From positions 21,364,020 through 21,428,019 of the forward strand of contig CM020620.1 of NCBI GenBank assembly GCA_009829735.1: 64,000 nucleotides of DNA. Reading direction: 5' to 3'. Origin of the DNA: Pyropia yezoensis. Taxonomy: Eukaryota; Rhodophyta; Bangiophyceae; Bangiales; Bangiaceae. The notes below the pieces were generated by a model. It was not told the DNA's origin. It saw only the letters and a program-made list of their open reading frames with translations, and did no database searches. Shown here piece by piece: positions 3,499 through 48,505 of the stretch (position 1 is its first letter; every line of letters starts with the position of its first letter). The position numbers and the translations under genes were made by a program.

Positions 3499-4146
3499 TA
3501 GGACAGCTGCTCCGCAGCTCACCAAACATCCTCGGGACGTCACATCCTATTTCTCTCAGGTGAGCAAGGAAAATTGGAATAGGCCTGGACTATATTTACT
3601 AAAATTTTCCAGAACCAGTGCCGTTCTCTGCGTTTGTTAAGCCAGAAACGCCCCCACGGTACACCGCGACCGTCACCTCGTCCGGCCTTCTGCGGAGCGG
3701 CGGCCACAGCCGCGGCTCTGCTGACTCTGTGGCCCCCAGACCAGAGTGCTGCTGCCTCGGACCCGCACGCAACGCCTGTCGGCGTCGCCGCGCCCCCGCT
3801 CCCAGCCCCCCCCCCCATTGCCCCCTCCCATGTCGACGTGAGAAGGCGTCTCCCATTATTTCCATACAGTACCGAGGGCGGGCAGCCAGCAGCCAGCCCC
3901 CCGCGCGGGGGTGGGGGGGGGGGGGGGGGGGGCGGGGGCGCGGGGGGATCCCCTCCCGGAAAGAAACCACATACAAAAAAAAAACCCAAAAAAACGGCCA
4001 CGCACCTCGCCCGCCAACGCGGTCGGGACGGTGGGACACGACGGGCGGGGGCGTCTGCCTTTTTGGATGTGGACGTGACGCCACGCGGTCGCGGCGCGCG
4101 GCCCCCCCGCACCCGCCGTGGCAGGTGCGGTGCGGTGCCGCGGTTG

Positions 4147-5510: not shown

Positions 5511-6123
5511 ATGGCGGAGACCGCCGACCACGCCGGCGGCCGCCGCCCCCACCGCCCCCTCCACCGGCGACCATGGCGGCGGCTGTGGGCGTCCCGCCCG
5601 CGACCGCCGTCGCCGCCGCCCGACGGGCTGACGCTGGGGCCGTCGGCGGCGGCGGCGGCCACTGGCGGTGGCGACACCGGCGGCGGCGGCGGCGGCGGCG
5701 GCAGCGGTACTGGCGGTGGTGGCGGCGGTGACGGCGGCAGCGGCAGCGGCGGCGGCCGCCCCGCCCCCTTAGCCCACCCCCACGCGCTGGCGCTGCCGGG
5801 CAGGGCGGCAGGGGGTCCGCTGCCGCCACCCCCGCCGCCGCCGCTACCGCCGCCGTCGTCCTCCCCGGGTCCTTTCCCCATGGCTGCGCTCGGCTGGGGG
5901 CCGCCCCCCCGCCTCTCCTCCCCCCCCTATCCCCGCCCCCTCACCGGCGGGCCCGCGGCTGCCGCCGCCGCCGTTGCCGACACCGCCGCCCCCACCGCCG
6001 CCGCCCCCACCGCCACCCCCGCCGCCGCCGCCGCTGGGACGACGCCCTTTGTCTATGACGGCCCGGGGGCCAACGTGTCGGTCGCGGGCGCCTGGGACGG
6101 TTGGCTCCACCACCGCCTCACCC

Positions 6124-6183
<60 letters not shown>

Positions 6184-7994
6184 GGCGCGGCGGCAGAGCG
6201 GGGGGCGACAGTAGCCCCGCGGTGGGGTCCCTGGCGGGCCTCCCGCCGGGGGCACACCGGTTCAAGTTTTTTGTGGACGGCGGCTGGGCCCTGAGCGCGG
6301 GGGTGCCCGCCACTGCCGACGGCTCGGGCGTCCGCGCGCACGTGGTGGTGGTGCCCCCGCCGCCGCCGCCGCCGTCGCCGCCGCCACCTTCCCAGCCCCC
6401 ACCCCCATCCCCACCGCCACCACCCCTTCCCCCACCGCCGCTGCGGCCGTCGACGCCGCCCGCTTCACCCGCCGCCGCCGTTGCCGCTGCCGCCGGCGGG
6501 TCGGACCCCCGGCGACGGCCACGGACCCCCCCGCGGGGGGGAGGGGGCGGCGGGGTGCCGTCTCCCCCCATGACGCCCCCCCGGCCGCCTCCGCCGTCCC
6601 CCCCAACCCACCCGCCACCGACCGAGACCGCCTCCTTCCCCGCCCGCCCTCCCCCCCCTCCCCCACCTGCATTGGTGGGGGGCGGGGGGGGACGACGCGG
6701 CGGCGGTGGCGCCGGCGGCGGAGGAGGCGGCGGGCGGGCCCGCCGGCGTGCCGCCTCCTCAGCGGCGAGCCTCCCAGACATGGCGGCGGTAGGGGGAGAC
6801 GGGGGCGCCACCGCCGGCACCTCCACCGTTGGTGGCGGTGACGCCGCAGCGACGGCCGCCGCCGCCGCGAGGGGCCGAGGGGGCGCACCCGGTGGCGGTG
6901 TTGCCCCGCCCGCCCCGCCGGCGGGCACCGACAGCGGCGGCCGGTTACCACGGCCACGGGTCGGGGGTGTCCGCCGATTTTCTCTACCCCGCCGGGGGGG
7001 GGGGGCGGCGGCGGCGGCGGCGGCCGGCGCCGCCCCGCCGCCGGTGGTAGGGGGGGGCGTGTCGGCCCGCGCCCGCCGGTCGCTGCCCCGCTGGGCAGGA
7101 GCGGCGGGCGTCCTTGCCGCCGCGGGCGGTCGCGGCGGCGGCAGCGGCAGCAGCGGCAGCGGCGGCGGCGACGGCCCACCACCGGGGACGGCGGCGGCGG
7201 CGGCGGCGGGTGGTCCCGCTGCCCCCCGCCCCGCGGCCGGGGCTGCAGCGGCGGCGGCGTCGACGGCAACGTCAGCGACAGCGGCACCCGCGGGCGCCGC
7301 GGCGGCGGCGGGTGCCCCGTCCGCGCCCACCGCGCCGACGCTGACGCAGACGCCCACGCCCGCGGCGGCGGCGGCGTACGCCGCCATGGCCAACCACACC
7401 CTGTCGGCGCTGGCCGACGCGCCCGCCGCGGCGGGCCTCGCCGCCCGCTCCGCCGCCACGTGGACGGCGCTCGGCCCCGCCTACGCGTCGCAGGCGGCGG
7501 CGGCGTACGTGCTGCTCGCCCGCTGTGCCGGCCGGTCGGTGGCGGCGGGGGCGGCGGCGGGGGGGGGTGGCGCCGACGGCAGCGGCGGTGGGGGCGCCGA
7601 CGCGGCCGAGGCGGCGCTGCGGCGCGCGGCGGCCGCCGCGGCGGGCCGCGGCGCCGCTGCCGAGGCGGATATCGTCCACCACCTGGCGGTGGTGGTGGAG
7701 CGGGCGGGGCGGGTGGACGAGGCGGCCTGCCTGTACCGCGACGCGGGGCGGCTGTACGTGGAGGGGGGGGTGGGGGGGGGGGCCAACGCGGCGCTGTGTG
7801 CGCGCAACGCAGACGGCTGTGGGCGGCGGCGGGAGCGGGCGGCGGCGCGGGCGGCGCGGGCGGCGGCGCGGTCAGAGGGGGCGAGGGGAGCGGGAGGGGG
7901 GGGGGAACATGGGGGGGGGAAGGGGGATCCAGCGGCCCCACACTCGTCGGCCAGCCGCACGCGGCTTGCACCGCCGGTTGGGGGGGAGAGGTAA
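5511..7994 (+). CDS. AMPK/CBM48-like glycogen-binding domain protein with TPR-like tail
   Basis: 827 residues from the ATG at 5511 (CCCATGG after a C/T leader); longer in-frame starts lie within leader-like sequence. Residues about 177-280 match the carbohydrate-binding fold of AMPK beta subunits and CBM48/CBM20: a Phe-Val-Tyr-Asp-Gly opening, an Ala-Trp-Asp-Gly-Trp turn, then Pro-Pro-Gly-Ala-His-Arg-Phe-Lys-Phe-Phe-Val-Asp-Gly. A run of about 20 Gly splits the domain after its first strands. Pro-, Gly- and Ala-rich linkers follow. Residues about 613-790 are predicted helical with repeated Ala/Tyr/Leu spacing like TPR units. Binding of starch or glycogen-like glucan is inferred from the family. 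No kinase or hydrolase domain is seen, so a targeting or scaffold role is likelier. The last 40 residues may read past the true end. Confidence 0.6.
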
Positions 7995-30820: not shown

Positions 30821-32584
30821 GGCTATATAGCCCAGAAGACGGGGCGGCCCAGCGGGGGCACGGAGGAGGACGGTGGTTGCAGTCGCGGGGAAGCGCAGCT
30901 GGTCACTGCAGTGAAGCTCGCGGGATCGGCAGCTAGAGGACACAGCTTTCCGCTCAGGCCCCGTATCGGCGTTTTTGAGCGCAGTTTACGCTCAGATAGC
31001 GATTGTGATACAGTACGGTCTTTGATGCGCATCAGTTTTCGCTCCGAATGGATCACGGGAGCGAGGCATCCCAGCCACGAGCGCGTCCGTCACTTGTCCT
31101 TGTCTCCCTCTCCGCCAAACTCCATGGCCAATGACTGGCTGCACTGGTCCCATACGGGAAGCTGCCGCAGGTGTACACAGGTTGTGTTACGCAGAGCTGC
31201 GCGACAGAACGGGCGCGGCTGGGTCGCAGTCTTTCAGGGCTCCAAGCGGCACGAGACGGGGGCAGGCGTGAGAACCTCCGCGTGTCCGTTTGGATGGCAA
31301 CGGCCGACAGGAGGACTGGCAATGCCGTGGATGCCGATGTAAGGAAAGGGGGACACAGAAGGGGCGCGGTAGAGCTTTGTATGCACTCTCACTGCTGGCT
31401 CTGTGCGCACCGACGGGTCGTGTATCATGTTCTGTCGTGTGGAATATCTGCTGCTTGCTGGTTGGGCAGTCGCTACGTCTACAGTCCATGGATACTGGTA
31501 GCTGGGCACGGTCGCGCGGGTAGACAAACAATGCTAACCCTGGTCCATGGCGCAGAATGGGTCGCCAGTATCCTCGCCGCCCGCCACCACCGCCTGACGG
31601 TGGACGCCACCATCGCCTGGCCACGCGCTCCCCCGCAGCTGCCGCCTGTGTTGTGGGGCGAGCCCGGGGAGGAGGAGCAACTTCCAGGTGCTGCCTCCCC
31701 CGGGTGGACACTGCGGGGAGGATTTGTCGTCCACCCGGCAGGGGGCGCTGCACACACGCAACCACGACCCGTGGCGCCGGCACCCAGCCTGGGTGGCGGC
31801 AGCACGCTGCTGCAAACCGGGCTGGACGCTTGAGGGGGGTGCGGCCATGATGGAGGGCGCCATCACTGCCTCCCCACGGTCTGCGGGTTGCCCTCCGCAC
31901 TGGGAGCGGGCGGCGGCGGGCCATAGCCACGCTCTGAGTGGCTGGGCAGGCGCCTGCCATACGCCCGACAGGCACGTTAGCCACACACTGAGGCTGGCGT
32001 GCAGGCTGAGCGGACGACGGGCGCGGCCGGGGGCCGACGAGGGATTGCACGCACCGAGGGGATGGCCCACGTGAGCCCCCGAGCGGGGGGGCCAAGCGTG
32101 GGCAAGCGCCCAAGGTGGGCACGGCACGCCTGCCGAGTGGCGAACGCCGCCGTATGAGGGTCGGTCTATTTAGTTTATAGGTGAACAACCGCGGGGACTA
32201 GCCCTGCGGGGGAGAGAGAGCGAAAAGCTTTTACCTTTAGAGACACTTCCTCGACACTGGCACTGCGCGGGAGTAACGGCGAACGCACACGCAACGACTG
32301 CGACGCGCACCGCTACCAAGGTTGTTCACTACAGCCTGCCGCCATCCCCGCCGCCCCACGCCACAGCCACAGCCACCGCCACCACCACTGCCGGTGGTGA
32401 GACGTTGATGCATGGGCCAGAGGAAGACCTGAGAAACCTCGAGAGATCACCCACCGCTATCTGGAAAGCAAATGACGGGCGACGGCAGCAGACGAGGAAA
32501 GCGCTGCCGCATCGGAACCGCCCGTGGGGCCGCACCGCCCGGCGACCCCTCTCCCCCCCTCCCTAAATAGGGGCGCCCCCCCCC
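30821..32584. other. Intergenic region of 1.8 kb, no supported gene
   Basis: Plus-strand 31171-31833 and minus-strand 31187-32188 frames overlap each other, and neither has a family signature. ATACAGTACGGTC lies at about 31010-31022, 190 bases upstream of the aminotransferase start. A CCACAGCCACAGCCACCGCCACC stretch at 32360-32385 is a simple repeat. Confidence 0.35.
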
Positions 32585-33085
32585 TCACCAACAAAACGCC
32601 CACAGCACCGCCACGTAGGCGCCCACTGACAGGACAGCGCGGACGTGGTGGCGGCGGCAAAAGCTGCGCGCCGTAGCGGCCACGCGCTCGTCCGCGGCGG
32701 CGCCCGCGCCCCGCAGCGACGCAATGTCCTCTCCCATAAACACCGCCGTCCACAAAATGACGGCCACCATCGCGGCCGCCGCGGCCGCCGCGGCGGTCGC
32801 CGCCCCGCCCGATGCCGCCCCCACCGCCGTCGACGCGGCGGACGCGGTGAACGCCAGCCACGCGTACGCGGCGGCGGCGGCGACGCCCAGCGGGGCCATC
32901 CAGTCGCGCCCAATGGGCCACCAAATGCGGAAAAAGGCGCGCAGGACGGCTGTCTCACCTGCCGACACCAGCCGCCCCAGCGTCCGCGCCTCGACGGCCG
33001 ACACAAACGCGAGGGAGCCCGCGTGGAGGCCGCCAAAGAACAGGGAGACGGCCAGAGCGGTCGAGTGGGGGGGCGGGGAAGCCAT
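32585..33085 (-). CDS. DUF1772-like four-helix membrane protein
   Basis: 166 residues from GCCATGGCT at 33085 after a C/T leader; the frame extends upstream to 33385 only as leader-like sequence. Four hydrophobic helices lie at about residues 10-30, 62-82, 90-115 and 145-164. Features shared with the DUF1772 family (which includes fungal anthrone oxygenase-like proteins) are the Gly-Gly-Leu-His-Ala-Gly turn in helix 1, a Phe-x-x-Trp-Trp-Pro stretch between helices 1 and 2, and an Arg-x-x-His-His-x-x-Arg patch before the last helix. Function in algae is unknown. An ordinary unassigned tetraspan is the alternative. Confidence 0.55.
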   Translation of the reverse strand: MASPPPHSTALAVSLFFGGLHAGSLAFVSAVEARTLGRLVSAGETAVLRAFFRIWWPIGRDWMAPLGVAAAAAYAWLAFTASAASTAVGAASGGAATAAAAAAAAMVAVILWTAVFMGEDIASLRGAGAAADERVAATARSFCRRHHVRAVLSVGAYVAVLWAFCW

Positions 33086-33627
33086 GGCCAAGTCAAAACG
33101 GACGCGGGGGGAGGGGGGGCGGGGTGCACCGGGGAGTGGCAGCGTGACAACGGCAGGAGTCGGCACGAGAGAAAGAAGAGAGGGGCGGAGGGACGGCCGT
33201 GCACGTTGCCGAGCAGGGGAGAGGTGCGCGTGCGGAGCGACGACTGCCCGACGGAGCTTTAATACCGGCGTGATGCCACCCAGTGTCCTCGCCGTCTGCG
33301 TGGCGGAGAGTGCTCTCCCCCGTACATGGACATGGTCGAAAAAAACGAGTTCTGGTGGGCATGTCCTACCGGCATCGATGAGCACCTCAGGAGGCCTGAT
33401 GGACGACGTTGAACGATCGACCGTAAGCTACGTCGACGACTGGGTGCCGAAGATGATGGATAGGTCGGCGTGGCCGGGTGTGTCCCTCCTGGCATCCGTA
33501 CTTGGGGCGCTCATTTAATTGCATTTCAGGTGTTTACGATGCAGAGTGAAAGTGCTGGGGGGTAGTTTCTCCGAGAACGCCACGTGTGTAAGTAGTGCAT
33601 CAAGGATCAGTCGTGTGTAAACCAAGG

Positions 33628-34120
33628 ATGGAAAAAAGGGATTTCTTACATCCCAGATAGATTAATCTATAAATTAATAAATTAAATATCAAATGTGATT
33701 AATCATGTTTTTGCTGGACTTGGCCTGACCTCGCTGCCGCGACGCCGTGGAGCGCGCCACTCACTTCGTCGCCCAGACACTGCCCTCTACTCCTGCTCGC
33801 TCCTCGCACTCTCGTTGCTGATCTTCTTGCCGCACAGGACGGTGTTGAAGGCGGCGATGGATCGGCTGCGACCCTGGGCGTTGCAGCGAAGGCGACAGAG
33901 CAAGCGGCCGTAGCAGTCTCGGCAGTAGTGTTCTTCAGCGTCGCACCGATCCACCACCGTACTTGGGGCGTGCTACCATCAGCGTGGGAGGGTCTGTGGC
34001 CCGGGCGGCGGCGAGGAAGTCTGCGGTGTCAGCGACAGCAGTGGTGGTATAAGTGGCAGCGTCCACGTGAGCGACGGACCGTCGCGCAGCGCCAGCCCTA
34101 CTGTGGCTGCTCCGTGGCGT
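33628..34120. repeat. Short interspersed repeat, uninterrupted copy
   Basis: About 493 bases that match 36233-36556, 38061-38143 and 45273-45390 in order. The left part is AT-rich (ATTAATCTA words); the right part ends CTCCGTGGCGT. The minus strand holds a short frame with Cys-rich spacing (Cys-Arg-Asp-Cys-Tyr-Gly-Arg-Leu-Leu-Cys), which could be the decayed end of a transposase, but stops lie just upstream. The family is unidentified. This copy is the empty site for the two insertions described at 36557 and 38144. Confidence 0.85.
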
Positions 34121-36232
34121 CTGACTTGTACATAGCTCTGTTCATGTACTGTGTTTGGTTGTGCTTGGCCTGTTCATCTTCTGAACGTATCTCTCGCTGC
34201 GTGATTTGTATTTAAAAAAAGGGGGGGACCTGATGAACACCTGTGGCACAGCCAGCTTAACAGCTTCACTAGCATGGGCGTCGATCTTGGACGCGAGCGG
34301 CCTCGCTCTGTGTTAACAGCCGTGTTGTGCTTCCCAAACAACCCCTCGCACGGCGCTTCCCGCTGACAGTTCAAGCTCTCTCTACAAGCCCTGCGCAGCG
34401 GGTCGAAAACCCTGTCCTATACCGACGGCCGATTTGACGTGCAACGGCGTGCGCGACCCGTTGCACGTGCACTGCAATGTGGCCCCAAGCGCCCAAGAAC
34501 GCCCTTTCCCGCGTTTATGCACTGCACGTCTGTCGCGCTACGGCCCCCCCCAGAAGGGGAGGCGCCGGCGAGACCCCGTGTTTTTGAGAGGAGCATGAGA
34601 ACGACATTGTGGAGGTGTGCGTGAAGAGCGTTTTTCTCTCCGGCGCTTCCTTCGCCAGTTATTGCCTTTCGTTTTCTGGATCATGTCGTGAAACACATGC
34701 ATTCGTACATACACGGGGCTTTCACGTTGCACGATTCGCGGCCACGCGCTGCATAGAAGTGGAAAAAGAGTTTGCAATACTCACCCCCCTGCACCAGATC
34801 CCGTGCAATCTTGCACGACCAAGCATGGCATATGCTTGCAGACCTGTGCAAAAGCTCATGTTCTCTTCAACGACATGCTTCTTGAGAGCAACCCGCGCGC
34901 CCCATCTACAGTGCGTACTCAGTAGCGTGTCTCTGCACGCCAATGCAGCCGAGCGACTCTCTTCTTACCGAGTGGAGCGATCTCCAGTTCACGGTCTGTG
35001 CACGAACGCGCACACTGGGTGCGGGCCTCATGCGGCATCCGCCGCGCGCCTGCAGCATTTTTCGGTGCAAAATGCAGTGAATCGTGCTCTTAACCAGGTA
35101 CACGAGGTGAAGAAGACGCCAGTGAAGTGACATTTATGCTTTTCTACAGGTAGGCTAGGCCAGCGCCCCCAAGGCCGCCTGCTGACTGACCCGCAACGCG
35201 GGTGGGCCCTACCAGAAAAAAATGCAGAGAGGTAAAGGTACAGGCACCAAGGTAGTAAAGACGACGCGCGTGCCCACGTCCACCGCCGTCGCAAAGGGGA
35301 AACGCAGAGAAGAGGCGTTGGCTGCCCCGCCTCGAGCGGCTCATCTCGCTTGGGATGGTGTGGGCGCGGTACGGTCGGCGCCGCTCGCGTTGGAGGCGCC
35401 GGCTTGCGTGCGTCTTGACAGACTTGGCGAGGAAGAAGGGCGCTTTGACCCTCAGGGTGCTGCGCAGCTCGATGCTTATAGGGGATGGGCGGGCGGGACG
35501 CGTGAGGAGAAAGGACGCTGCCGGCCAGCTGGCCGGCGGTGGCCTGCCCCACCCCGCCACGGGTCTTAACCCGGCGGGTGTCGCGCGCCTCCCCCGCGCC
35601 GGTGCCCCCCACAGGGTGCCGGGGCGTGGGCGCAAGCAGGTACAATCAGGGGCGCCGTTGGCTGGCCAGTGGGACGGTGGTACGAACTTGCGTTGAAGGG
35701 CGCGGCCGCCAGTGCCACTGCCGCCGTGGCAGCGCCGGGAGGAACAGCAACGCAGCGGCCGTAGGGGGCGGGCCGCAGCGACAAACGGTCGTGGCGCCGG
35801 CGAGTGGAAGCAGAGGGGTGCGCGGCCGCAGCCGAGCAACGGTACCCTGCCCCGCCCGCCGGTGACGACCAACGGCGCGTCAAATTCCGCCCGCCTGCCC
35901 CCGAGGGGGCGTGGGCGGCGGACACGCGGGCGGCCAAGGCCGCCGCGGACGTGGCGCGGAGGAGGCGCGTGGTGCCGCCGAGGGAGACAGACAGCGACGA
36001 CGGGCGCGCCCACGGCACGCCCGCTTGAGCGGACCGCGCGCCCCCCGCGCGGTCGATCGCACAATCACAGCCAGTTACAAGAAGAATCATCATTCCAGAC
36101 ATAAGCAGGGGAAAACGTGCACAGTTGCAAGAATTGGGGCCCTGTGCACACCCGTGCTGGGCCGCGCCAGAACGTGTTTACCAGCCCGAACACTAAAAAT
36201 CGGCTCGAAGCAAGGGACGATTTAAGACATTC
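34121..36232. other. Region between repeat copies; weak frames only
   Basis: From 34121 to 35140 base composition is more moderate. A plus-strand frame at 34609-35130 (173 residues) shows no family signature. From 35222 a frame begins after an A run with Lys/Thr/Val-rich residues and continues to 35569. A second frame, 35804-36028, ends in an Arg-Glu-Thr-Asp-Ser-Asp-Asp-Gly tail. The two could be exons of one unknown gene, but no convincing splice pair was found. Confidence 0.3.
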
Positions 36233-36556
36233 ATGGAAAAAACAGGACTGTTTAAATCCCAGGTAGATTAATATAAGATCAATATATTAATCTATAGATT
36301 CATAGGTTAAAGATCGATTTTCAATTAATCTACTGTTTTTTGCTGGTCTTGGCCTGACCTCGCTGCCGCGACGCCGTGGAGCGCGCCACTCGCGTCGTCG
36401 CCCAGACACTGCCCTCTACTCCTGCTCGCTCCTCGCACTCTCGTTGCTGACCTTCTTGCCGCTCAGGACGGTGCTGAAGGCGGCGATGGGTCTGCTGCGA
36501 CGTTCGACGTGGCGGCAAAGCCGATAGAGCCAGTGACCTTAGCAATCCCGGCACTA

Positions 36557-38058
36557 TAGTCGATTCCATATTGCTAGGCCCCTGGCCACCGGGCAACTTT
36601 GTCGCTGCATAAGTTCGTCAAGACGAAACAGCTGAACGCTTATCTCAGTCCATACGATGAAGCTTCTCACTGGCTTTCTCTTGAGCCACTCTACTCGGCT
36701 CCACGATGCCGAGACCGTACATCGAGGTGCCGACAATGAGTTGCCAGCCTTATTTTTCTCACTTATTGCTGTACTCAGAGCGCTCTGGCCAGGTGAGTAT
36801 TGACCCTTCGGAAGTGGCACCGACTCAGTTCGTGTACGAAGAGGTGCGGGGGGCCGTCCAGGCCGTCGCGGGCACGCTCAAATCACGAGAAGCGCGGGAG
36901 AAGCGTTCATAGCACACGTAGGCGGAAGTCCTCGGCGGGTCGAGCGCAGAATCGTGCGTTGCGAAATCAACTTCATGAGTCAAAGAGCGAACGGGGGCCA
37001 CTTCGAGGGGGCTACTTGTGTGATCCCTTGCCGTTTCTTTGCCCGCCTTTTCTTCTGCCGGATCACCTACCGCCTTAGCGCGCGCAGGGCGCCTTGCCAT
37101 GCAGCGGCAAAGGAGCTCGGGTGATCGAGGGAGGCTGCTGGCTGCCTTTCTTCGTCAGCATGCCTCGCGGGAGCGGTGCTGAGGCTGTCGCGCGTAAGCG
37201 CGGCCGCGCGATATACGCTCTCACGAGGGAGTGCGCCGTGATCGTGTCGAACGTTCGGGCGTTCTTCGAGCGTGAGCGAGACGTCGGGCGATCCAGGGCG
37301 CTGAATAACCCTGTGGAGCGCACCAGCTTAGCTACAGGAGTAAGTGAGCGGACTGTCAAGCGCGTGCGCTCGGAGAGCTATCAAGCTACGCGTCGGCCGA
37401 CAGGGGAGCCAGAGAGGCGGGCGACCAGCCGCCGCGTGCCTGCGGCGCAGCGTGTGAGGGTCCGCGAGTCGATTTATAAGCAGTTTGAGAACCGCTCGGT
37501 GCCCACGCTGGACTCAACTCTGTTGTACCTGGCGGCTGAGCGCGCCGCAGGGCGGTCCGACAGCACCTACCCGGGGTCCCGCACCACGTTGTTGGCGGTC
37601 GATCACGGTCGCAGTGACGGGTAAGGGCACCCGTTGCGAACCAGCCACCGCGAGGCGGTGACGGACAGCGACGCATACCGGGATGGTGGGTCAGGGCGAG
37701 GGAATGAGTGTCCAGGGGGAGACACGCACCCCGTGGAGACGGCGACCACGTCCCAATCCACAGGTGCCGATTGAGTGGGGGGATGATGCAATTCCAAATG
37801 AAGCCCCCCCCTACACCAATTTCGATGTTGCGATCTACGTGCGACAACCGAGTGAAGACCGGTCATCGCGAGCTTTGCGTGAGATACGGGCACAAATAGG
37901 CACCTTGCGGCCCCCGTGAGGCTGCATGCATAAAGCAATCTTTCCAGAGGGAGCAGTACGCCGGTGCTGAACCATCCTACAAAGTTTCAACTCGATGTCT
38001 TAAAGAGCGTTGGCACAGGGGCCGGAATCCCACGGGCCTAGCTATATGGAATCGACTT
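36557..38058. mobile_element. Tc1/mariner-like element, 1502 bp, non-autonomous
   Basis: Terminal inverted repeats of about 25 bp: AGTCGATTCCATAT(T/A)GCTAG is seen inward from both ends (36558 onward, and the complement ending at 38057). TA is present on both sides (36555-36556 and 38059-38060), while the homologous empty site at 33926-33927 has one TA. The only transposase-like frame, at 37160-37624, covers the DNA-binding part; no DDE/D catalytic region was found, so mobility would need a transposase from elsewhere. Confidence 0.85.
37160..37624 (+). CDS. Truncated Tc1/mariner transposase, helix-turn-helix part
   Basis: 154 residues from the ATG at 37160 (AGCATGCCT); an in-frame ATG at 37094 is also possible. 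Residues about 58-75 (Thr-Ser-Leu-Ala-Thr-Gly-Val-Ser-Glu-Arg-Thr-Val-Lys-Arg-Val) are a typical first HTH of IS630/Tc1/mariner transposases. Residues about 95-125, with a Pro-Thr-Leu pair and Leu-x-x-Leu spacing, fit the usual second HTH. The frame then stops before any Asp/Glu catalytic residues. It could act as a DNA-binding repressor of related elements, but is more likely inert. Confidence 0.6.
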   Translation: MPRGSGAEAVARKRGRAIYALTRECAVIVSNVRAFFERERDVGRSRALNNPVERTSLATGVSERTVKRVRSESYQATRRPTGEPERRATSRRVPAAQRVRVRESIYKQFENRSVPTLDSTLLYLAAERAAGRSDSTYPGSRTTLLAVDHGRSDG

Positions 38059-38160
38059 TAGTGTTCTTCAGCGTCGCACCGACCCCCCACCGTACTTGGC
38101 GCGTGCAACCATCAGAGTGGGAAGGTCGGCGGCCAAAGCGGCGCCCTACAGAATGTGCAT

Positions 38161-38613
38161 CCCTCGATATTGAGGGTTTACACGCGATATCGCGGGTATT
38201 CTTTCCAATACAGTGCGACCCCTCACTTGCCCTGGGGTAGACCAAGGAGGTGGCCACCCTTCCAGTGTCCGACAGTTGTCCTGAGATGTTCAGATTTCAG
38301 CGATCTGGACGGTATGAGCCAATCAGCGCCCGTCAATCGCCCGAATATGAGCCGCCCGGCCGGGCCACTTCACGCGTACCCCCCCCTCAGTTGTGCCGAT
38401 CGGCACAACTGCGGGGCGGCCAAGTGAGGGGTCGCACTGTATCGGAGGTGGACACCTCGAAATCGTGGGTGAATAGGAGCACCACCCTCCGTATCGAGGC
38501 CGGAGTACCGGCCTCCCAACAGGCAGCCTCGATCTTGGGGACACCCCGTCACAGCTGTCGCGGGGAAGCCGCGATATCGAGGGTCACCGATCGGAAACCC
38601 TCGATTTCGAGGG
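38161..38613. repeat. Left subterminal palindromes of the CACTA element
   Basis: CCCTCGATATTGAGGG at 38161-38176, CGCGATATCGCG at 38183-38194, GCGATATCGAGGG from 38571 and CCCTCGATTTCGAGGG at 38598-38613 share a CGATATCG-type core. Right-end counterparts are listed separately. CACTA elements use such clustered motifs as binding sites for their TnpA-type protein; binding here is inferred. Confidence 0.7.
38211..38439. mobile_element. 229-bp MITE inserted in the CACTA element
   Basis: Inverted ends CAGTGCGACCCCTCACTTG (38211 onward, complement ending at 38439) match perfectly over 19 bp. TA lies outside both ends (38209-38210 and 38440-38441). A perfect 24-bp palindrome sits at 38388-38411. 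TA duplication and a CAGT start indicate the Tc1/mariner superfamily. It separates members of the CACTA subterminal repeat array, so it arrived after the CACTA sequence formed. Confidence 0.85.
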
Positions 38614-38772
38614 CGATGTGACGCCCTGGAAGGATCTCGAGTCTTCCAGATCCTTCCGGAACGATCCAGACCTGGTCTTGGATGGAGCCTCCAACCGGGT
38701 TCCAAATTGGCATCCGCGTCGCTCCATATTGGCTCCCGGAATGGGACATACACTATGTCACTCTTGAACGCT

Positions 38773-38806
38773 CATTGGCCGACGTGACAGGTTTGCGCGT
38801 ATAAAA
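38773..38806 (+). promoter_or_regulatory. CCAAT and TATA boxes of the transposase promoter
   Basis: An inverted CCAAT word (ATTGG, from 38774) is followed by TATAAAA at 38800-38806, about 210 bases before the ATG at 39013. Transcription would be expected to start near 38830, giving a leader with the C/T runs typical of this genome. Confidence 0.6.
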
Positions 38807-39012
38807 CCACTCCTTGAGAGCCACTTCAAGCCGCCGTTCCCTCCCCATCATCCAACGTCAGCTGCACGCACGTACGCTTCGACCCAACTGCGACGGTCGA
38901 CCAACCGGTCGACCAGCCATCATCCCGCGCGCCCTCTCCGCCCCCCCTTCCACTGTCCGCTGCCGCCGCTGCTCCCCCTCCCCCCTTCTCTCCACAAGCG
39001 CCGCTCATCCAC

Positions 39013-42000
39013 ATGTCATCAGAACAACCAGAATGCTTCTGCTCGCGCTGCACGTTGGGGAACCCAGGGAACCCTCAGCGGGTGTCTCTGGCTACGTGGA
39101 AAAGGCACAACCGTAAGCGCACCCGACCCCTGGCCGGTACATCTGGAGGGCCAGCCGAAGTCGCGGAGGCTGGGACTTTGCCACTCGCCGTGCGTGCTGG
39201 GCCTGCAGATGGTGCTGGGTTTGTCGGGGACCTGGCAGGCGGACCCGCGCTGCCAGCCGGTGCAGCGGACGACCCAGAGGGCGCTCTGAGTGCACCAGAA
39301 ACGAGCGACGATGGGTCCTCTAGGAGTACCGGCAGCAGCAGCAGCTCCAGCGCTGCCAGTCCAAATGTGGACCGTGATAATGCACCCGCCCCAGCTGCAC
39401 CGCCGCAGCCCATTGTCCAAGACGTGGCGCGCTGTAACGAGGTGCTTCTCCCAGTCGTCCAGTTCACGGAAAACATCGACGATTTAGCTCTGTACGCTTG
39501 GTTCGTACAACACAACGTCCGGAAGGCGGCAGTGAAAGATCTACTGAGGCTGAAAACGTGCTCCGCTGCTTACCGCACTCCCGCGAAAACGGAGCGGTTT
39601 ATTGATGCCAGTGTGGACGTTCACCAGCGCCAAGTTGATGCCTGTATCAACGGCTGCGCTGCCTACACGCACACGAGGGCAGCGCTGACAAGCTGTGAGT
39701 ACTGCGGCCAGACACGCTTTCGAGCGAGCGGGCAGGCAGCCAAGCAGGTCACGTACTGGTCCTTGTCGGGACGGCTGATCAACATGATTAGCGACCCTAC
39801 ACTCGGACCAGAAACGATTGCAACGATGGCGAGGGCTCGTGAGGCTGCGGGACATCCCGTCCAAGACTTGAGAGATTGGTACGATGGCAGCAATATTCGA
39901 GACGCTGTAAGGGCGGGCTACTTCAACGCCGATACGGACATCGCACTGAGCCTGTCCACCGACGGCTTCGAGGCGTGGCGTCAAATGGGCTTCCAAGGAT
40001 GGCCTGTAATAGTTACCGTACTTAACCTGAGCCCTGAGATTCGGTCCCGGAATGTGTGCCAAATCTTGGTCACTGTAACTCCTGGACCCAAACAACCACG
40101 AGATCTCGAGTCTTTTCTGCACCCCTTGGCGGAGGAGCTGGACCTGTTGGCAAGGGGAATTCCAGGAGTTCGAGTGTATGGGTCGACTGAGTCGCACACA
40201 TTGCGAGGTCTGGTCCTCCAAGTCACTACCGACATGTTGGCTGGCAACAAGCTCTTCAATGCCGTGGGGCATAATGGTCATCAGCCTAACCGATTTCGGG
40301 CTTTTCACGGTGTTTTCGCGCCCGGAGCGAACCACACCTACCACCCCCCCAAGCATCCTGGTACGGGCGAGGTCCTGTTTTCTGTGGACGGCTGCGTAGT
40401 TCCCAGAAGGACGGCAGAGAGCATACGCGCTGCCGCGACGGCCATGGAGGCTGGCAAGACCGCAGGTCGATTGCAAGCGTACCTGACCGGCCTCGCCAAA
40501 ACAACCGGCATCAAGGGCCACTCTTTGCTTTTCTGCCCCAGCCCCGCTCAACGACTTTCCTACCCTAACCTGGCCTATCTCTCAGAGATTGGACCTGCGG
40601 CGGCTCCATACGACACCATGCACCTGCTGCTTCTCAACGTGGTCCCGCTTCTCTGGAAACTGTTTTCTGGCGGCCTTCCGATTGTAGGCGACGCCTCTGA
40701 AGACTACGTGTTGCCACGGCAAACTGTCGTCTTGATTGGCAGGGAGATGGAGAACGCCCGACAAACCGTGCCCCTCTCTCAAGCGCGGTCCTTGAGGAAC
40801 ATTGACATCAAGAGCAAGTCCTTCAAAGCAGTCGATTGGATGTATTGGCTTCTAAGTACCGGAGAAGTCCAGCTCGCCGAACGAATTCCGGACTTGTACT
40901 ACAATTTGTTCATGTCTCTGTGCCGTGCCAGCCGACTGCTGTTTCGACCAAGAGGTCTGAGCATGTCTGAGCTCGGAGACGTCGAGATCGACCTCAAGCG
41001 CTTTGTGGGACAGTACTACGCATCCGTTTATCGTGGCTCGTCTCCCGTCTGTCGATCAACTGTAGCAGCAGTTTTGGACATTGTGCCTAACCTCAGGTCC
41101 TGTGGACCAGCCTGGGTGTCGTGGCAGTTCCCCGCTGAGCGGAAGATTGGGTCCCTTACGGCGCTCATCGGTTCCCGATCAAACCCGTACGCGAGCCTCG
41201 TCAACAATGTTTGTTCCCAGTACAAGGCCGAGCTCATCTCTTCTTTTGGGCAGACGTATGTACCTGGCCAATGGGCGAGGGCAACGGGCAAAGAGCCGCG
41301 CAACGACGATCTGCCCTCCCACAGTTTGCGGCTCTCCATGGAAGATGGTCTCGGTCGGGCTCTCATGCCGCCTCCGACCAGAGCAGCTCCACTTCAAGGA
41401 GAGGAGCTGACGTGCATGCGTGCAGTCCTCCTGGCTGACGGCGTCAACTTGATGGATGAGCCGATAATTGCGGTGAAATACTTTCGGTTAAGGTTTGCTG
41501 GAGGTGGAATTGCTGGGGCCCGGCCAATTAGGGCGGAAAGCGAATGTCATTGCCGCCGTAACTTCCTTGTTCGCGTTAATTCTTCTGAAAGGCGGCGCGC
41601 TGCTAACGGTCAAGTTCAAGAAGTAGCAGTGAGCACCTATGGCGCCGTGCTTCACTACGCTGCGGTCCCTGTCGTGGGGGAGCCCGGTCACAAGGTTTTT
41701 GCCTTCATGGAGCGCATCAAGTCTGCTCGTGACAGGTCTGGGAGGTACGGATACGCGGCGCAGAAGAGGGGAAGAGACTGCTTTCATGGCTTTGGAGGTG
41801 CCAAGCAGTACGTCCCAGTGGGGGCTTTGGACGCTGCGGTGGGAGCGTTGGAGCGGGAGGGCCTTCATGCCGTGCTTTTTGATCGTGAGCCTTTCTCAGA
41901 TAAAACGAGGTGAGTAAATAGTGTTTTTGTTTGGTTCCATTTTTTTTTCTCGAACAATTTTAGCGTAGCATGGGGCACGACTTCTGGCCCTGTGCACGTC

Positions 42001-42069
42001 ATCAACGCACGTGGCAACTGTTCACACGTGGGAAGAAGTACCTCCCTCACCAATGTGAATTTACACTGA
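39013..42069 (+). CDS. Tnp2-type CACTA transposase, two exons
   Basis: Exons 39013-41909 and 41964-42069, with a 54-bp intron whose ends are AG|GTGAGT and TTTTAG|C. Spliced length is 1000 residues; unspliced, a stop follows at once. Residues 8-32 form a small Cys/His motif (Cys-x-Cys-x-x-Cys, then Thr-x-x-x-His) common at the start of Tnp2 proteins. About 195-235 is a zinc-ribbon-like segment (Cys-x-x-Gly-Cys, Cys-x-x-Cys). The Tnp2 core follows with Leu-Ser-Leu-Ser-Thr-Asp-Gly-Phe near residue 318, carrying the first catalytic Asp, and downstream Val-Thr-Pro-Gly-Pro-Lys-Gln-Pro and Asn-Arg-Phe-Arg blocks. The enzyme cuts and joins element ends. The frame is intact, and codon usage is less GC-rich than in neighbouring host genes. 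Confidence 0.85.
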
Positions 42070-42430
42070 ACAGCAAAATTGACCTAATCGTCTGTCGTGG
42101 GATCACCTCCTGCGAGACTTCCTGACCTCATATGTGGGAGACCGGTATATTTTTGAGGGACTGCCGGCAGATTGTCAGATGTATTTTTGGGAAATTCTCC
42201 GCACTCCAGCTGGAAGGCCGGAGATGGCGGCGGCCGGCGCTTGCGTCGTGTGGCTGGCCTGCGCTTCCTCTACCCACCCGATCCGTGACCACCTTGTCGC
42301 GGTCCGCCACCATCTCACACCTCCTTGTCCGCCCTCCTCCCTCCCCCCCGGGCTGGATCTGCCCGCCAGACCATTCTCCCCGGCCTGCTGTGTTTGCTCT
42401 GTCACACTCGAGCACTTGTCGGACGGCATC

Positions 42431-44847
42431 ATGCCGCGCAAGCGCAAGCGGGCGCAGCGTGTCGATGAAGGTAACTTTGAGAGCGCTGGTGCACATGAGC
42501 TGATGTCGACCTGGGGCAGGATGACATTGTTTGAGGAGCGTGAGGCCGGGAGAATAACGTTCTCACTTCTTTCGTCTCGCTTATGCTTCCTTTCATGCGC
42601 CGTTTTGCTGCTCTTGCTTGATGCATCACGCGTCCCCACAGAGAACAAGCTGAAAGCGGCCGCTGCGGCGGCCGCTGCGATGTCGAGCGCTTCAGGCAGA
42701 GCCGGGAGCGCGGCACGTCGATGGATGCCACAGCCCCATCCCCCCCCCGTGGTACCCGCCGCCCCTGACGGGCCGCCCGCCCCCCCCTCGTCGCCCCCCC
42801 TCCCCCCTTCACTCGGCATACAGCCGCCGGCGCCCGCCCCCTCCCCCGTCCTGGCCGCCTCCCCAGGGGCTGCAGCGACGCCTACGGTCGTGCCGGTGCG
42901 GCAGAGACGGACCAGAGCATCCACGAGAAGCGGAACGGTGAGGACGGCCGTCAACTCCCCCACGGCCGCGGCCGGGTCCCCTACGCTTGCGGGGACATCC
43001 ACGCATCAGCCAAGGGCCGCTGCGTCTTCGCCACTGGAATCTGCAGCAAGCCGATCAAGTGGGGCTACTTTGGCAAGGACGCAGCAGGCGGCAGTGGCCT
43101 CGTCGCTGCCGTTGGAAAGACCGCCGCTTCCACCGCCTCCTCCTCGACGCGGCCCCCGCCCACCCTCCCACGCGCCTCCGTCCCAATCCGCAGCGTTGCC
43201 AATTTCTGGCTCGCTCCCCGCCGGTCCTGATATGCAGATCCCGGACCTACCGCCTCCTCCGTTTCCGGGCGGCCCTGCTGGGCAGCCGCCGGTGCCCACC
43301 CCCTCCTCTTGCCGCCGCCCCCGCCTGCCTCTGCCGTCCCGCCTCCCTCCCGCGCTCCCCCCCCGCCGCCGTCGCGCAGGGCGGTTGTGCAGCCGCCCCT
43401 GGCGCCTCTCCCTGGCCCGGGCACTGCCGCATCGAAGGGGCTGGTCCTCGCCCTGCCTCCTCCCCCTCCTGTTTGGGACGACCGTGCTGGGCCACCCCCG
43501 GCGGTCATCCCCCCCCCCTCCGAAGTAGTTTCCTCGGCGCCGCCTCCACCCCCCCCTATTTTGAGGCTCCTTTGCGCCCTCCCCCCCCCCATCTTTTTTG
43601 GCTCCTTTACCCCACCCCCCTCCCTCCTCTTTTGTGGCTCCTTTGCCCCCCCCCCCCCCCCCCTCATTTTCAGCTTCTACGCCGCCCCCCGCCTTGCCCT
43701 CCTGTGCGGCTGCTGTGCCACCCCCCCCCCCTCCGCCTCTGCGACTGCTGTGCCGGCGCCCCCCCCCCCCACCTTCGCGGCTGCTGTGCCGCCCCCCCCC
43801 CCCCCGCTTTTGCGGCTGCTCTGCCGCCCCCCCCCCCCCCGCTTTTGCGGCTGCTGTGCCGCCCCCCCCCCTCCCATCTTTGGGGCCGCTGTGCCGCCCC
43901 CCCCCCCACCTGCCTTTGCGGCGCCGGCGGCGCCTCGAGTGGGGCTAGTACGGCACCTTCCTCCCCAAGTTTTGGCGCCATCCCTTGCCTCGCCTTCCCC
44001 TCTACCGCCTGCAGCGTTTTCGCGGCCTGGGCCGCCTGGCGATGGGCCCGGGGGTGCCGCCCTCCTGCATCCTGCGGCAGCTCCTGGACGGCCGCTGTCT
44101 GCCGTGCCGTCCGCTGGGGGTGGGGCGGCGACGCCGAGACCGAGAGTGCGACTCCCCGCCCCGTCTCGGCCGCCAGGTGCCACATCTGGTGCGTCCTCGG
44201 ACGCGTCTCTGACCGGGAGGGAGGGTGGCTCCGCGAGGCCATCAAGGGCCCACACCAATGGGAGGTGTGGGATTGTGCTGGCGAACGATGCCCACGCGAG
44301 CATCCGCACGGTGGATGCGCCCCCGCCCCCTCTTGTGGAGATGGAGGTTTTCACGGACCCAGACCTGAGCATCTCCCTGAGCGAGGCCGACGCAGCGAAG
44401 GTACACGTGCGCACGGTCGTCAAGAGCTTTAATCCCGAGCTCACGTTTACCAATCAGGAGCGGGACACCATTGCTACAGCTGTTGTCTACCTGGAGGCGC
44501 ACGTCCCCGAGCTCGCCGTGTGCAAGAGGTCGTGGGGCGCGTGCACCCTGCTTGCCCGCTCCGTCAACAACCGCACTGCGTACTGGAAGGCGCGGCGTGC
44601 CAGCCGGGCTCGAGCCGCGTTGGTGGCGGCGGCGGGAGCAGCAGCGCTTGGTGCTGCGACTGGGATGGGGGTGGCCTCGGTGGTTGCGCCGAGTCGATCC
44701 CCCACAGCCGCGCCGGCGCCAGTGCCGGCTGCTGCGTCGGCATCCGTAGCAGCCGCGGCCGCCGCGGGGGCAGTGGCGGCAGCGGCGGCAGCGGCAGCAG
44801 CGGCAGCCCAGCCGACAGCTGAGGAAATGTTCAGTAGATTACAGTAA
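42431..44847 (+). CDS. Second CACTA gene, Pro/Ala-rich TnpA-like protein
   Basis: The likely start at 42431 encodes a basic Pro-Arg-Lys-Arg-Lys-Arg stretch (nuclear signal). A 171-bp intron, 42471-42641, with GTAACT and CCACAG ends joins in frame to an Ala-rich helix. A long Pro-rich part follows in one frame to 43528, and the C-terminal part lies in another frame, about 43309-44847. The change falls within dense C runs, where a further intron or a homopolymer length error is possible; I could not choose. The last 190 residues are folded: an acidic stretch, then Asn-Pro-Glu-Leu-Thr-Phe, a helical block with Cys-Lys-Arg-Ser-Trp, and an Ala-rich tail. By position it corresponds to the TnpA end-binding protein. 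Confidence 0.5.
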
Positions 44848-45090
44848 TGTAGCGTAGCATTAAAACTGGACAAAATCAACAATGAAATGTGAAAGCTGTA
44901 AATCAACAATGAACATGAAAGTGTTTCATTTACGTAGGAATCATATTTGGTTCAAGCGCTGGAACAGAGCCCCATGGAGATGAAGCGTTGATACGGATAC
45001 AAGCGTCGTTGTGCAGACCAGCATCGCCGCTCTGCGAGGGCGTCATGTCGAGGCTTGTGAGCCAATCATTGGCTCAATGATCGCGGGTTG

Positions 45091-45250
45091 TACCAATATC
45101 GAGGCTACGACTCGGCGGCCCAGGATCGCAGGTTTGATCCTCGATATTGTGCGTTGAGGCCCGTGCCGCACACTCGATATCGGGTGTTGAACGACAGCAG
45201 GACGCCCTCGATATCAAGGCTCCCCATGGCCTGCCGACCCCCGATATCGG
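45091..45250. repeat. Right subterminal palindromes of the CACTA element
   Basis: AATATCGAGG (45095 onward), CCTCGATATTG (from 45139), CTCGATATCGGG (from 45173), CCCTCGATATCAAGG (from 45206) and CCGATATCGG (45241-45250) repeat the core seen at the left end, in both orientations. Confidence 0.7.
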
Positions 45251-45390
45251 AAGAAAATCTTTTGTAGGGGCGGCGAGGAAGTCTGCGAAGTCAGCAACAG
45301 CAGTGGTGGCACAAACTAAGCTTTAGCAGTGTCCGCGTGAGCGACTGACCGTCGCGCAGCGTCAGTCCTGCTGTGGCTGCTCCGTGGCGT

Positions 45391-45975
45391 AGTGCGAGAA
45401 AATAATGGGAAAACGAACAGGACAACGGGCAATGCGGAGAAGTGGGGGGTGCGGGGGGCGGGCTCACCCAGCATTTAGTTAAAAAACATATTTAAAAAAC
45501 GAGAAAGCGCCAACTGATTAATCAATAATCAAGCTACGACTAATTGTATTTACTTTAAAGCATCGATTTCATTGTTGCCATCCATTGTTTAAGAACCCCT
45601 GTGCAGGTGCACATGAACTGTCACTCTGTCAGTCGTAGTCGCCAATTACCACGGGGCGAGAGGGCGGGCCCCAATACTGTTAGTGGGTATTTCCCAGACA
45701 GCAAGATGCGCCATGGCCCGACCCAAGTTTTGCGAAGCTCGACGTGGGTACGAATTGGGCACCTCTACGTAGGTCGCCGACCCACGCTCTACCCACGTTT
45801 GGCAGCCCCGCCATTGGCTGGAGCCGGCACCCCCCTCGCAGCACCCCCCTCGCAGCACCCCCCGGCTCCCCCCTGCACCCCCCCTTCCCAGCAACCAAAA
45901 CGTCGCAGGTGCCGAAGCTCGATCAGCAGCGGGCGCCTTCCCCCCCGCGGCCGACGGTCACCGTCACCACCGGGA
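45391..45975. other. AT-rich gap and leader of the CCA-adding enzyme gene
   Basis: The 45470-45600 part is unusually AT-rich (TTTAAAAAAC, ATTAATCAATAATC), possibly the far end of the host repeat, which shows similar words at its left end. The 45600-45975 part becomes C-rich and leads to the ATG at 45976. Confidence 0.4.
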
Positions 45976-48505
45976 ATGGCGGCGGCCACCGGTGCCACCG
46001 CCACAGAGACGGCGGCAGGGTCGGCGGCGGTGGCGGTGGTGGCGGCGGCCCCCCGCCGGTCCCCCCGCGATGCAGCTGCTGCCGCGGCTGCTGCCGCCGT
46101 CTCTGTCGGCGGCGGCGCCGCTGCCCCCCACGACACACCGCTGCGTGTGGCCGTGTCCCCTGCCGAGGCGCGGGTGTGTGCGCTGCTGGCCGACACGGCC
46201 GCCGGGCTGTCGTCGCGTCGGCGGGGGGCGGGGGGGGGGGGGGGGGTGAGCGTGCGCATTGTGGGCGGGTGGGTGCGGGATAAGTTGCTGGGGGGGGGGG
46301 TGGAGGGGGGGGGTGGGGGGGGGGGGGGGGCGGGGGGGGGAGCGCCGACGGTGCTGCCGACGGTGACGGCGGCGGCGGCGACGGCGGTTATGGCGGCGGC
46401 GGGAGCGACGGCGACGGCGGAGAGATCTATGGCGTCGGCGGCGACGGCGGCGGCGGCGACGGCGGCGGCGGCGGGGAGGCCGGTGGCGGCGGTGGCGGCG
46501 GCGGCGGCGGTGGCGGCGGCGGCGGCGGGGGGGGTGGTGGTGGGGCGCCCACGGTGCGCGCCTCCCCCCCGGGGGCCGCCCGCCACCACCCGCTGGACAT
46601 GGACACCGCGGTCTGCGGGGTGGACCCGCGGGCGTTTGCCGCGGCCCTCCACGCGGCGGCGGTGGCGGGGACGCCGCCGCCGCACCCGCACCCGCCGCGG
46701 CGGCCGCCTCGCGGCAAGGCCCACCCGACGGTGACGCTCAAGGTGGGGGGCGTCTACGTGGATGTGACGGGCCTGCGCGTGGGGGGGGGGGCAGCGGCCG
46801 GCGCACCTCCCCCGCCCGCCCCAGCTGCCGCTGCCGCTGCCGCTACCGCTGCCGCTGCCGCTGCCGCATGCGCCGCCACGAGTCCGCCCGCGGCGGCGGC
46901 GGCGGCGGCGGCCGTCGACGACCAGGCGGCGGCGTGGGCGGCAGACGCTGCCGCCCGGGACCTCACCCTCAACGCCCTCTCCGTGGACCCCGCCACGCGG
47001 TTGGTGGCCGACCCGACGGGCCGTGGGGTGGCGGCGGCGGCGTGGCGGCTCGCCGCCACCCCCGCCCCCGCGGCGGTGACGCTGGGCGCCGACCCGCGGC
47101 GGGCGCTGCGGGTGGCCCGCCTCGCCGCCGCCGCCCGCCTGGTGGTGGACGCGGCCATCCCGGCGGCGGCGGCGGCGGTGGCGGCGCCCGCCCTGGCCGC
47201 CACCGTTGCGGCGGGCGGGGGGGGTGCCGTCGCCGTCGCCCGTGAGGCCGACGCGCTGGTCACCCTGGGGGGGGGGCGCGGCGTGCGGCTGGCCACCACG
47301 TGGGGCGTCTGGGCGGCGGCGGTGGGGGGGGAGGACGGGGGGGTGGCGGTGGGTGGGGAGGGGGGGGGGGGGAAGTACCCCCGTGGGTGGCCGCCTGTGC
47401 CACTGCCCTGGACGCGTACGAGGCCTGGGGGGGGGTCGCCGTGATGGGCGGTGGCCCCGCCTCCGCCGCCGCCGCCGCCACCGCTGGCGCGGACGCCAAC
47501 GCTGCCGCGGGGGGGTGGCGAGGCCTGGACCGCCTCGGCCGGTACGTGGCGCTGACAGCGCCGCTGGTCACCGCCGTGCGGGACTGTCCAGCGACGGCGG
47601 CCGCCGGCAGGGGCGGCGATGGTGCGGCGGCGGTTGTGGCCACGGGCAGCGCGGCTGTGGTGTCCTTCCTCCGCGACCGCCTGGGCGTGTCGGCCCGCCA
47701 CGCGGCGGCGGTGGCGGCCGCCCACGGGGCGGCCGCAGAGGTGGCAGCAGCCGCTGCGGCGGCATCCGCGGCGTCGACGGCCGCGCCAGACGCGGCGGCG
47801 GCGGGCGCGGCGGGGGGGGGGGCGGCGGCCACCCCCGTGCAACGGGACGTTGGCGGCCCCGCCGGTGGGGCACCTGGCAGGGGCGGCGGCGGTGGCGACG
47901 GCGGCAGCGGCGGCGGCGGATGTGCCGTCGGCGGGGCCGCGGAGGTCCCACCGCCCCCCGCCCCCCCCCCGCTGGCTGGTCCCGGTGACGGCCCGCGGCT
48001 GCCGGCGGGCACGTCGGCCGCCGCGCGGCGGCGGGTGGTGCTCGGCCGCCTCGTCCGCGGGGGTGGGCCGACCTGGCGGCTATGCCTGGTCGCCGCCGCT
48101 CTGCGCGGCCGCCGCTGGCACGCACCGCCCCCCACGGCGGGGGCGGGCGACCCTGCTCGCGCCGGCGACGCGGGCGCGGACGACGCCTCTGCCGACAGTG
48201 TTAGTGCCGATGGCGGTGGTGGTGCCGCGGCGGCGGCGGCGGCGGCGGCGGTGACGACGACGGCCGCGGCGGTGGCAGCGGCGGCGCGGTTGGCCGCCGA
48301 GATTGACGCTGCCGGCCTGGCCGGCGCGTGGGCGGACCGGCCCGCGCTGCCGGGCTCCCGCCTCGACGCCGCCCTGCCGCGGCGACGAGCGGGTGACACG
48401 GCCGTGCAGGCGGCGGTGGCCGACTGGTCGGCCGCAACGGGGGGGGTGGGGGGGCGGGACGCGTGTGCCGCGTGGCTCCGTGCCCTCTTTCCCGACTACG
48501 CGTGA
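45976..48505 (+). CDS. tRNA CCA-adding nucleotidyltransferase, frame broken at G runs
   Basis: Class II tRNA nucleotidyltransferase, which adds CCA to tRNA 3' ends. Family motifs appear in order: Val-Arg-Ile-Val-Gly-Gly-Trp-Val-Arg-Asp (about 46252), Leu-Asp-Met-Asp-Thr-Ala (about 46595, catalytic Asp pair), a Lys-Val-Gly-Gly-Val-Tyr-Val-Asp-Val-Thr strand (46740), Arg-Asp-Leu-Thr-Leu-Asn-Ala-Leu (46957) and Pro-Arg-Arg-Ala-Leu-Arg-Val-Ala-Arg (47094), then a helical C-terminal domain to Asp-Tyr-Ala at 48505. The frame changes twice: between about 46290 and 46560, and near 47356-47372. Both coincide with G homopolymers, so they are more likely length errors or polymorphism than decay. Ala/Gly inserts fall between motifs. 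The ATG at 45976 gives an Ala-rich N-terminus that may be organellar. Confidence 0.75.

Follow-up and report, generated by a model that had tools for sequence, protein, structure and literature searches.

Nested cut-and-paste DNA transposons with exact borders in Pyropia yezoensis

The locus and its features

The window analysed here is a stretch of 64,000 nucleotides from the red alga Pyropia yezoensis (C3:21364020-21428019 of a 107.48-Mb assembly in 11 contigs), a genome for which 48.0% repeats and 65% GC are reported (PMC7423979). Within the window, one short repeat, hereafter the host element, is split by two DNA transposons, A and B, and B is in turn split by a miniature inverted-repeat element (MITE). 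The features are as follows, in window coordinates.

33623-34120, plus strand: paralogous copy of the host family containing neither A nor B, 3'-truncated (consensus positions 1-503 of 698)
36220-36227, plus strand: left 8-bp target duplication of the host, ATTTAAGA (family alignment and duplication test)
36228-36556, plus strand: first block of the host, starting CATTCATGG (family CATGGATGG); the TA that closes it is the left duplication of A
36557-38058, plus strand: element A, 1502 bp, a copy of a ~2.68-kb DDE_3 transposon that targets TA, shortened by an internal deletion; terminal inverted repeats [T/A]AGTCGATTCCATAT
37163-37621, plus strand: what is left of A's transposase frame on the 5' side, truncated by the deletion; alone it matches no Pfam family
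38059-38143, plus strand: middle block of the host; it opens with the right TA duplication of A at 38059-38060 and closes with the left GCG duplication of B at 38141-38143
38144-45269, plus strand: element B, 7126 bp including the MITE, ends CCCTACA...TGTAGGG
38209-38441, no strand assigned: the MITE (38211-38439, 229 bp, ends CAGTGCGACCCCTCACTTG) plus both of its TA duplications
39013-41913, plus strand: 966-aa open frame of B, transposase family tnp2 (Transposase_21; PF02992, E 2.6e-11, 43.6 bits against a cut-off of 28.6)
43309-44847, plus strand: second open frame of B, 512 aa and rich in proline and alanine, without a Pfam match
45270-45586, plus strand: last block of the host; its first three bases (45270-45272) are the right GCG duplication of B, and its end reads CCATCCATT
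45587-45594, plus strand: right 8-bp target duplication of the host, GTTTAAGA, 7/8 identical to the left one

Two further open frames lie outside the nest. That at 29591-30820 matches class I/II aminotransferase (PF00155, E 9.4e-33) and is likely a host gene; it stands a few kilobases away from the nest. That at 5511-7991 contains an AMPK glycogen-recognition domain (PF16561, E 2.6e-09).

The host family and its empty sites

Comparison of 33628-34120 with the window by BLASTN yields three collinear blocks, at 36282-36556 (86%, E 5e-87), 38059-38143 (87%, E 1e-24) and 45269-45390 (84%, E 3e-33); the first ~50 bases of the host lie outside this local match and were placed by the multiple alignment of the host family. 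Where the host blocks meet there is one TA and one GCG, and each of these targets is doubled in the nested copy, the left TA being at 36555-36556. The initial annotation had proposed this collinear joining, the single TA and GCG of the uninterrupted copy with their doubling in the nest, and the insert borders 36557-38058 and 38144-45269; the pairwise alignment and the family consensus bear it out on all these points, and both pairs of borders are exact. The junctions are read in one assembly, and an assembly error at the joins is conceivable until independent reads span them.

The same annotation used 33628-34120 as an empty-site control. This copy does lack A and B and does join collinearly, but it is a 3'-truncated paralogue without the host's 3' end, not an allele, and it differs from the family majority at 39 of 498 sites. 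The family alignment of 26 genome copies is the better control. The host family is multi-copy (40 copies scored among 153 candidates, hence at least 40), and the alignment comprises the 26 scored copies with near-whole matches (query start ≤6, end ≥486) plus the nested copy, the other 14 being left out as incomplete matches. Its consensus of 698 bp has inverted ends CATGGATGG and CCATCCATG and reads GGCACTAGTG at the TA site and GGGCGGCGGCGAGG at the GCG site. Three bases are missing at the TA site in at least four of the 27 aligned rows, which leaves the reading unaffected. The GCG duplication sits in a GCGGCGGCG run, and the duplication length of B in the window is read as 3 bp only because 3 fits the family consensus without a gap. 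The alignment also corrects the outer borders: the repeat is indeed split as first described, but its extent is not 36233-45390. The nested copy spans 36228-45586, reaching 196 bases past the earlier right end; that end had been set by the point, 34120, at which the match to the control copy gives out.

Since only 85 bp separate A from B, the two could conceivably be one composite insertion or rearrangement instead of two independent insertions. However, these 85 bp are in-register host sequence, matching the paralogue at 87% and the consensus at 96.5%. Separate inverted repeats and a separate duplication belong to each insert, and outside the window no place of A lies near a place of B among the matches listed. 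A composite origin is rejected as extremely improbable, with in-register host between the inserts and separate places for each elsewhere.

The ends of the host family were tested for target duplications in 22 copies including the nested one; these exclude the truncated control copy (L001) as well as L072, L077, L088 and L094, which have no recognisable 3' end. With flanks of 8 bp, 136 of 176 positions (77%) are the same on both sides, compared with a mean of 32% and a maximum of 48% in shuffled flanks, and agreement at lengths 2-7 and 9-12 stays within the shuffled range. Taken copy by copy, the 8-bp flanks match at 7/8 or better in 13 of the 22, at 6/8 in four and at 4/8 or fewer in five (L003, L069, L074, L089 and L097). 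The host is a DNA transposon family in whose copies no transposase was found. It is hAT-like by its 8-bp duplication, hAT elements being characterised by 8-bp target duplications, and it further shares with non-autonomous hAT elements the short inverted repeats and the absence of transposase in its copies; it differs in its CATGG ends and in that no partner transposase was identified.

Two other identities were weighed for this family. A different kind of dispersed repeat, e.g. a SINE, a solo LTR or a segmental duplication, would be in keeping with the five copies that have no good 8-bp match and with the lack of an enclosing autonomous copy: when compared by eye, none of the 19 exact right-end matches encloses any of the 83 hAT-domain places in the genome. 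The inverted ends and the duplication matching at 7/8 or better in most copies nevertheless speak for a DNA transposon, and Rfam gave no match at the gathering threshold in 32000-48000 of the window, so that we regard such a repeat as very improbable. Membership in the P superfamily is unlikely, though less remote. P elements likewise make 8-bp duplications, and their ends begin CATG, as do those of the host; on the other side stands the abundance of hAT domains in this genome. The model of the P-type RNase H (PF21787) is uninformative, having found no match here or in any of 14 control genomes. The hAT-like assignment is the one retained below.

A hAT dimerisation-domain match (C1:13408801-13409001) is separated by no more than a few hundred bases from a full host-family copy (L076, C1:13409033-13410329) and falls outside that copy's 8-bp duplications. 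Nine hAT-domain places are each in an 886-aa open frame (C1:9783508, 16223931, 19760838 and 31926587; C2:20660537, 20670210 and 24563803; C3:18762717 and 27327692), which suggests a recently active hAT family.

Elements A, B and the MITE

The deletion in A is placed at 37593/37594 by comparison with its relatives. In six of these, 1.16-1.82 kb of additional sequence interrupts the match at A position 1037/1038, and a seventh (C1:33.06, 84% identical) also continues past this point. Two relatives in which both ends are seen (C2:28.42 and C1:34.70 Mb) measure 2677 and 2679 bp with TA on each side, as in the window copy, so that the stretch missing from A amounts to 1175 and 1177 bp relative to them. 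A DDE_3 domain (PF13358) was found in the C-terminal piece of a C2 relative (E 1.2e-07), a part that A has lost, and in a 429-aa frame of the related L028 family (E 8.9e-08), which is ~67% identical to A in DNA. The Pfam search did not find DDE_3 in the frame of L016 or in an N-terminal piece. Among solved structures there were seven weak matches to the A-like transposase, of which the only transposase is Sleeping Beauty (5cr4, E 0.046). With its TA duplication and the DDE_3 domain of its relatives, A is best classed as an internally deleted member of the IS630/Tc1/mariner group.

The spacing between the second D and the E in A-like transposases is 91 and 90 residues, the catalytic residues being assigned by eye. 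PMC8533490 gives a spacer range of DD78E to DD111E for Sailor (DD82E) and places red algae, with one species in its table, among the taxa whose Sailor spacer exceeds 90. A resembles Sailor in the DDE_3 catalytic domain carried by its relatives and in a spacing inside this 78-111 range (PMC8533490). It differs in having a TA duplication, whereas most Sailor elements are described there as having TATA, and in ends that begin AAGTC, whereas Sailor inverted repeats usually begin GT or CC (PMC8533490). We have filed A as Sailor-like and not as Sailor.

Three right ends of B occur in the genome at ≤3 mismatches. Besides the window copy there is a second complete copy (L030, C2:21859757-21866629), with 95 mismatches over 6859 aligned sites and nine gaps, the largest of 34 and 9 bases, and a third, diverged right end on C1. 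Both complete copies have CCCTACA at either end, as does the third at the single end seen. The tnp2 frame stops after 825 residues in the C2 copy and is open to 966 in the window copy. The second open frame includes a tandem array of 35/71-bp units (window 43539-43922), and the 34-bp length difference between the copies falls inside it.

CACTA (EnSpm) elements have CACTA termini, a 3-bp target duplication and short repeats near both ends. B encodes a tnp2 transposase (PF02992), and a 3-bp duplication fits, being GCG in the window and GGG at L030; both lie in ambiguous G/C runs, where the length of 3 bp could be misread. The motif CGATAT[C/T], counted on both strands with the MITE excluded, occurs six times in the first 500 bp of B and seven times in the last 500, and is absent from the 5895 bp between them. 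Such crowding at both ends, with none in the middle, is likewise a CACTA trait and is the arrangement expected of putative binding sites near the ends. B departs from the CACTA rule in its CCCTACA termini. On its tnp2 transposase we regard it as a CACTA-like element with CCCTACA ends. Searches of open PMC papers on red-algal CACTA, Porphyra elements, nested insertions, Pyropia MITEs and algal CACTA ends retrieved nothing pertinent.

The MITE is flanked by TA at 38209-38210 and 38440-38441, and in the L030 copy of B the MITE is absent and its site reads as one TA, in agreement with the initial proposal that a MITE splits one of the two transposons. Full-length places at 99-100% identity number at least 41 (40 of 124 candidates scored), and a 21-base end pattern, with ≤1 mismatch allowed, has 99 matches on one strand and 98 on the other. 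A sample of 30 loci (L037-L066) corresponds to 23 distinct places, the window's included. All 23 are 229 bp long with TA on each side; 12 equal the consensus over the full 229 bp and 11 differ from it by one or two bases, in a sample of the places ranked closest to the window's copy, which leans toward low divergence.

Longer elements have the same kind of ends. Seven pairs of MITE ends spaced 3.4-3.6 kb were found on C1 among the matches listed. In the two that were fetched (L099 and L100), the left 63 bp are 92% and 87% identical to the MITE, and the right 80 bp are 96% identical in both. Both contain a DDE_1 transposase (E 2.6e-26 and 3.9e-25), accompanied in L100 by CENP-B_N and HTH_Tnp_Tc5. 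L100 has one open frame of 641 aa and the frame of L099 is split; at the likely first catalytic acid, judged by eye, the residue of L100 differs from that of L099. Owing to the split frame in the one and the residue difference in the other, neither is established as a working source. In L100, at least 102 bp of the pogo-type right end are tandemly repeated just outside the end (positions 3535-3763, 99% identical), where the locus ends. The MITE shares with pogo-type MITEs a TA duplication, short length and many copies, shows no notable difference from such MITEs and has CAGTGCG ends in common with the 3.4-3.6-kb elements. It is pogo-type, from a family of nearly identical 229-bp copies.

Order of insertions and significance

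The initial annotation held that the order of events can be read. This is so for three relations, since the nesting places the host before A, the host before B, and B before the MITE. It is not so for A and B, which sit side by side in the host; an order of A before B read from nesting is rejected, as the two are siblings. Divergence offers a second line of evidence. The nested host is off the family majority at 68 of 696 sites, A is off the majority of six relatives at 27 of 1498 (18/1036 plus 9/462), and the window MITE differs from its consensus at 2 of 229. For B, the two complete copies are apart at 95 of 6859 sites, and comparison over 1236 sites with the third copy as outgroup gives five private changes in the window copy and 12 in the C2 copy. 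Such divergences are upper bounds on insertion ages. They favour the order host, then A, then B, then MITE, and it is divergence only that suggests that A preceded B.

On this reading the nest began with a ~700-bp non-autonomous hAT-like element that inserted with an 8-bp duplication and now spans 36228-45586. This received A, a TA-targeting element of the IS630/Tc1/mariner group that has since lost ~1.18 kb of its interior, most of the transposase gene included, and B, a 6.9-kb element encoding a tnp2 transposase; the 229-bp pogo-type MITE then entered the left end of B. Cut-and-paste transposition with staggered-cut duplication is established for such superfamilies. By analogy, in each insertion a transposase would bind the inverted repeats, excise the element and join it at a staggered cut, with gap filling giving rise to the duplication. 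We consider this whole reading, a hAT-like host containing A and B with a later pogo-type MITE in B, highly probable.

The nested cut-and-paste transposons at this locus are real, have exact borders and are well resolved, and they are of an ordinary kind; by itself, the nest opens no long-standing question. Exact borders are now given for four DNA-transposon families of nori, and for three of these (A, B and the MITE) longer or complete relatives are present in the same assembly. More tentatively, and with somewhat less than an even chance in our estimation, the MITE family may be still moving or have moved very recently in nori and, in addition, A may represent a red-algal Sailor-like lineage (DD90-91E) targeting plain TA. 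The near-identical MITE family could supply markers for strains or be a sign that a transposition system is active.
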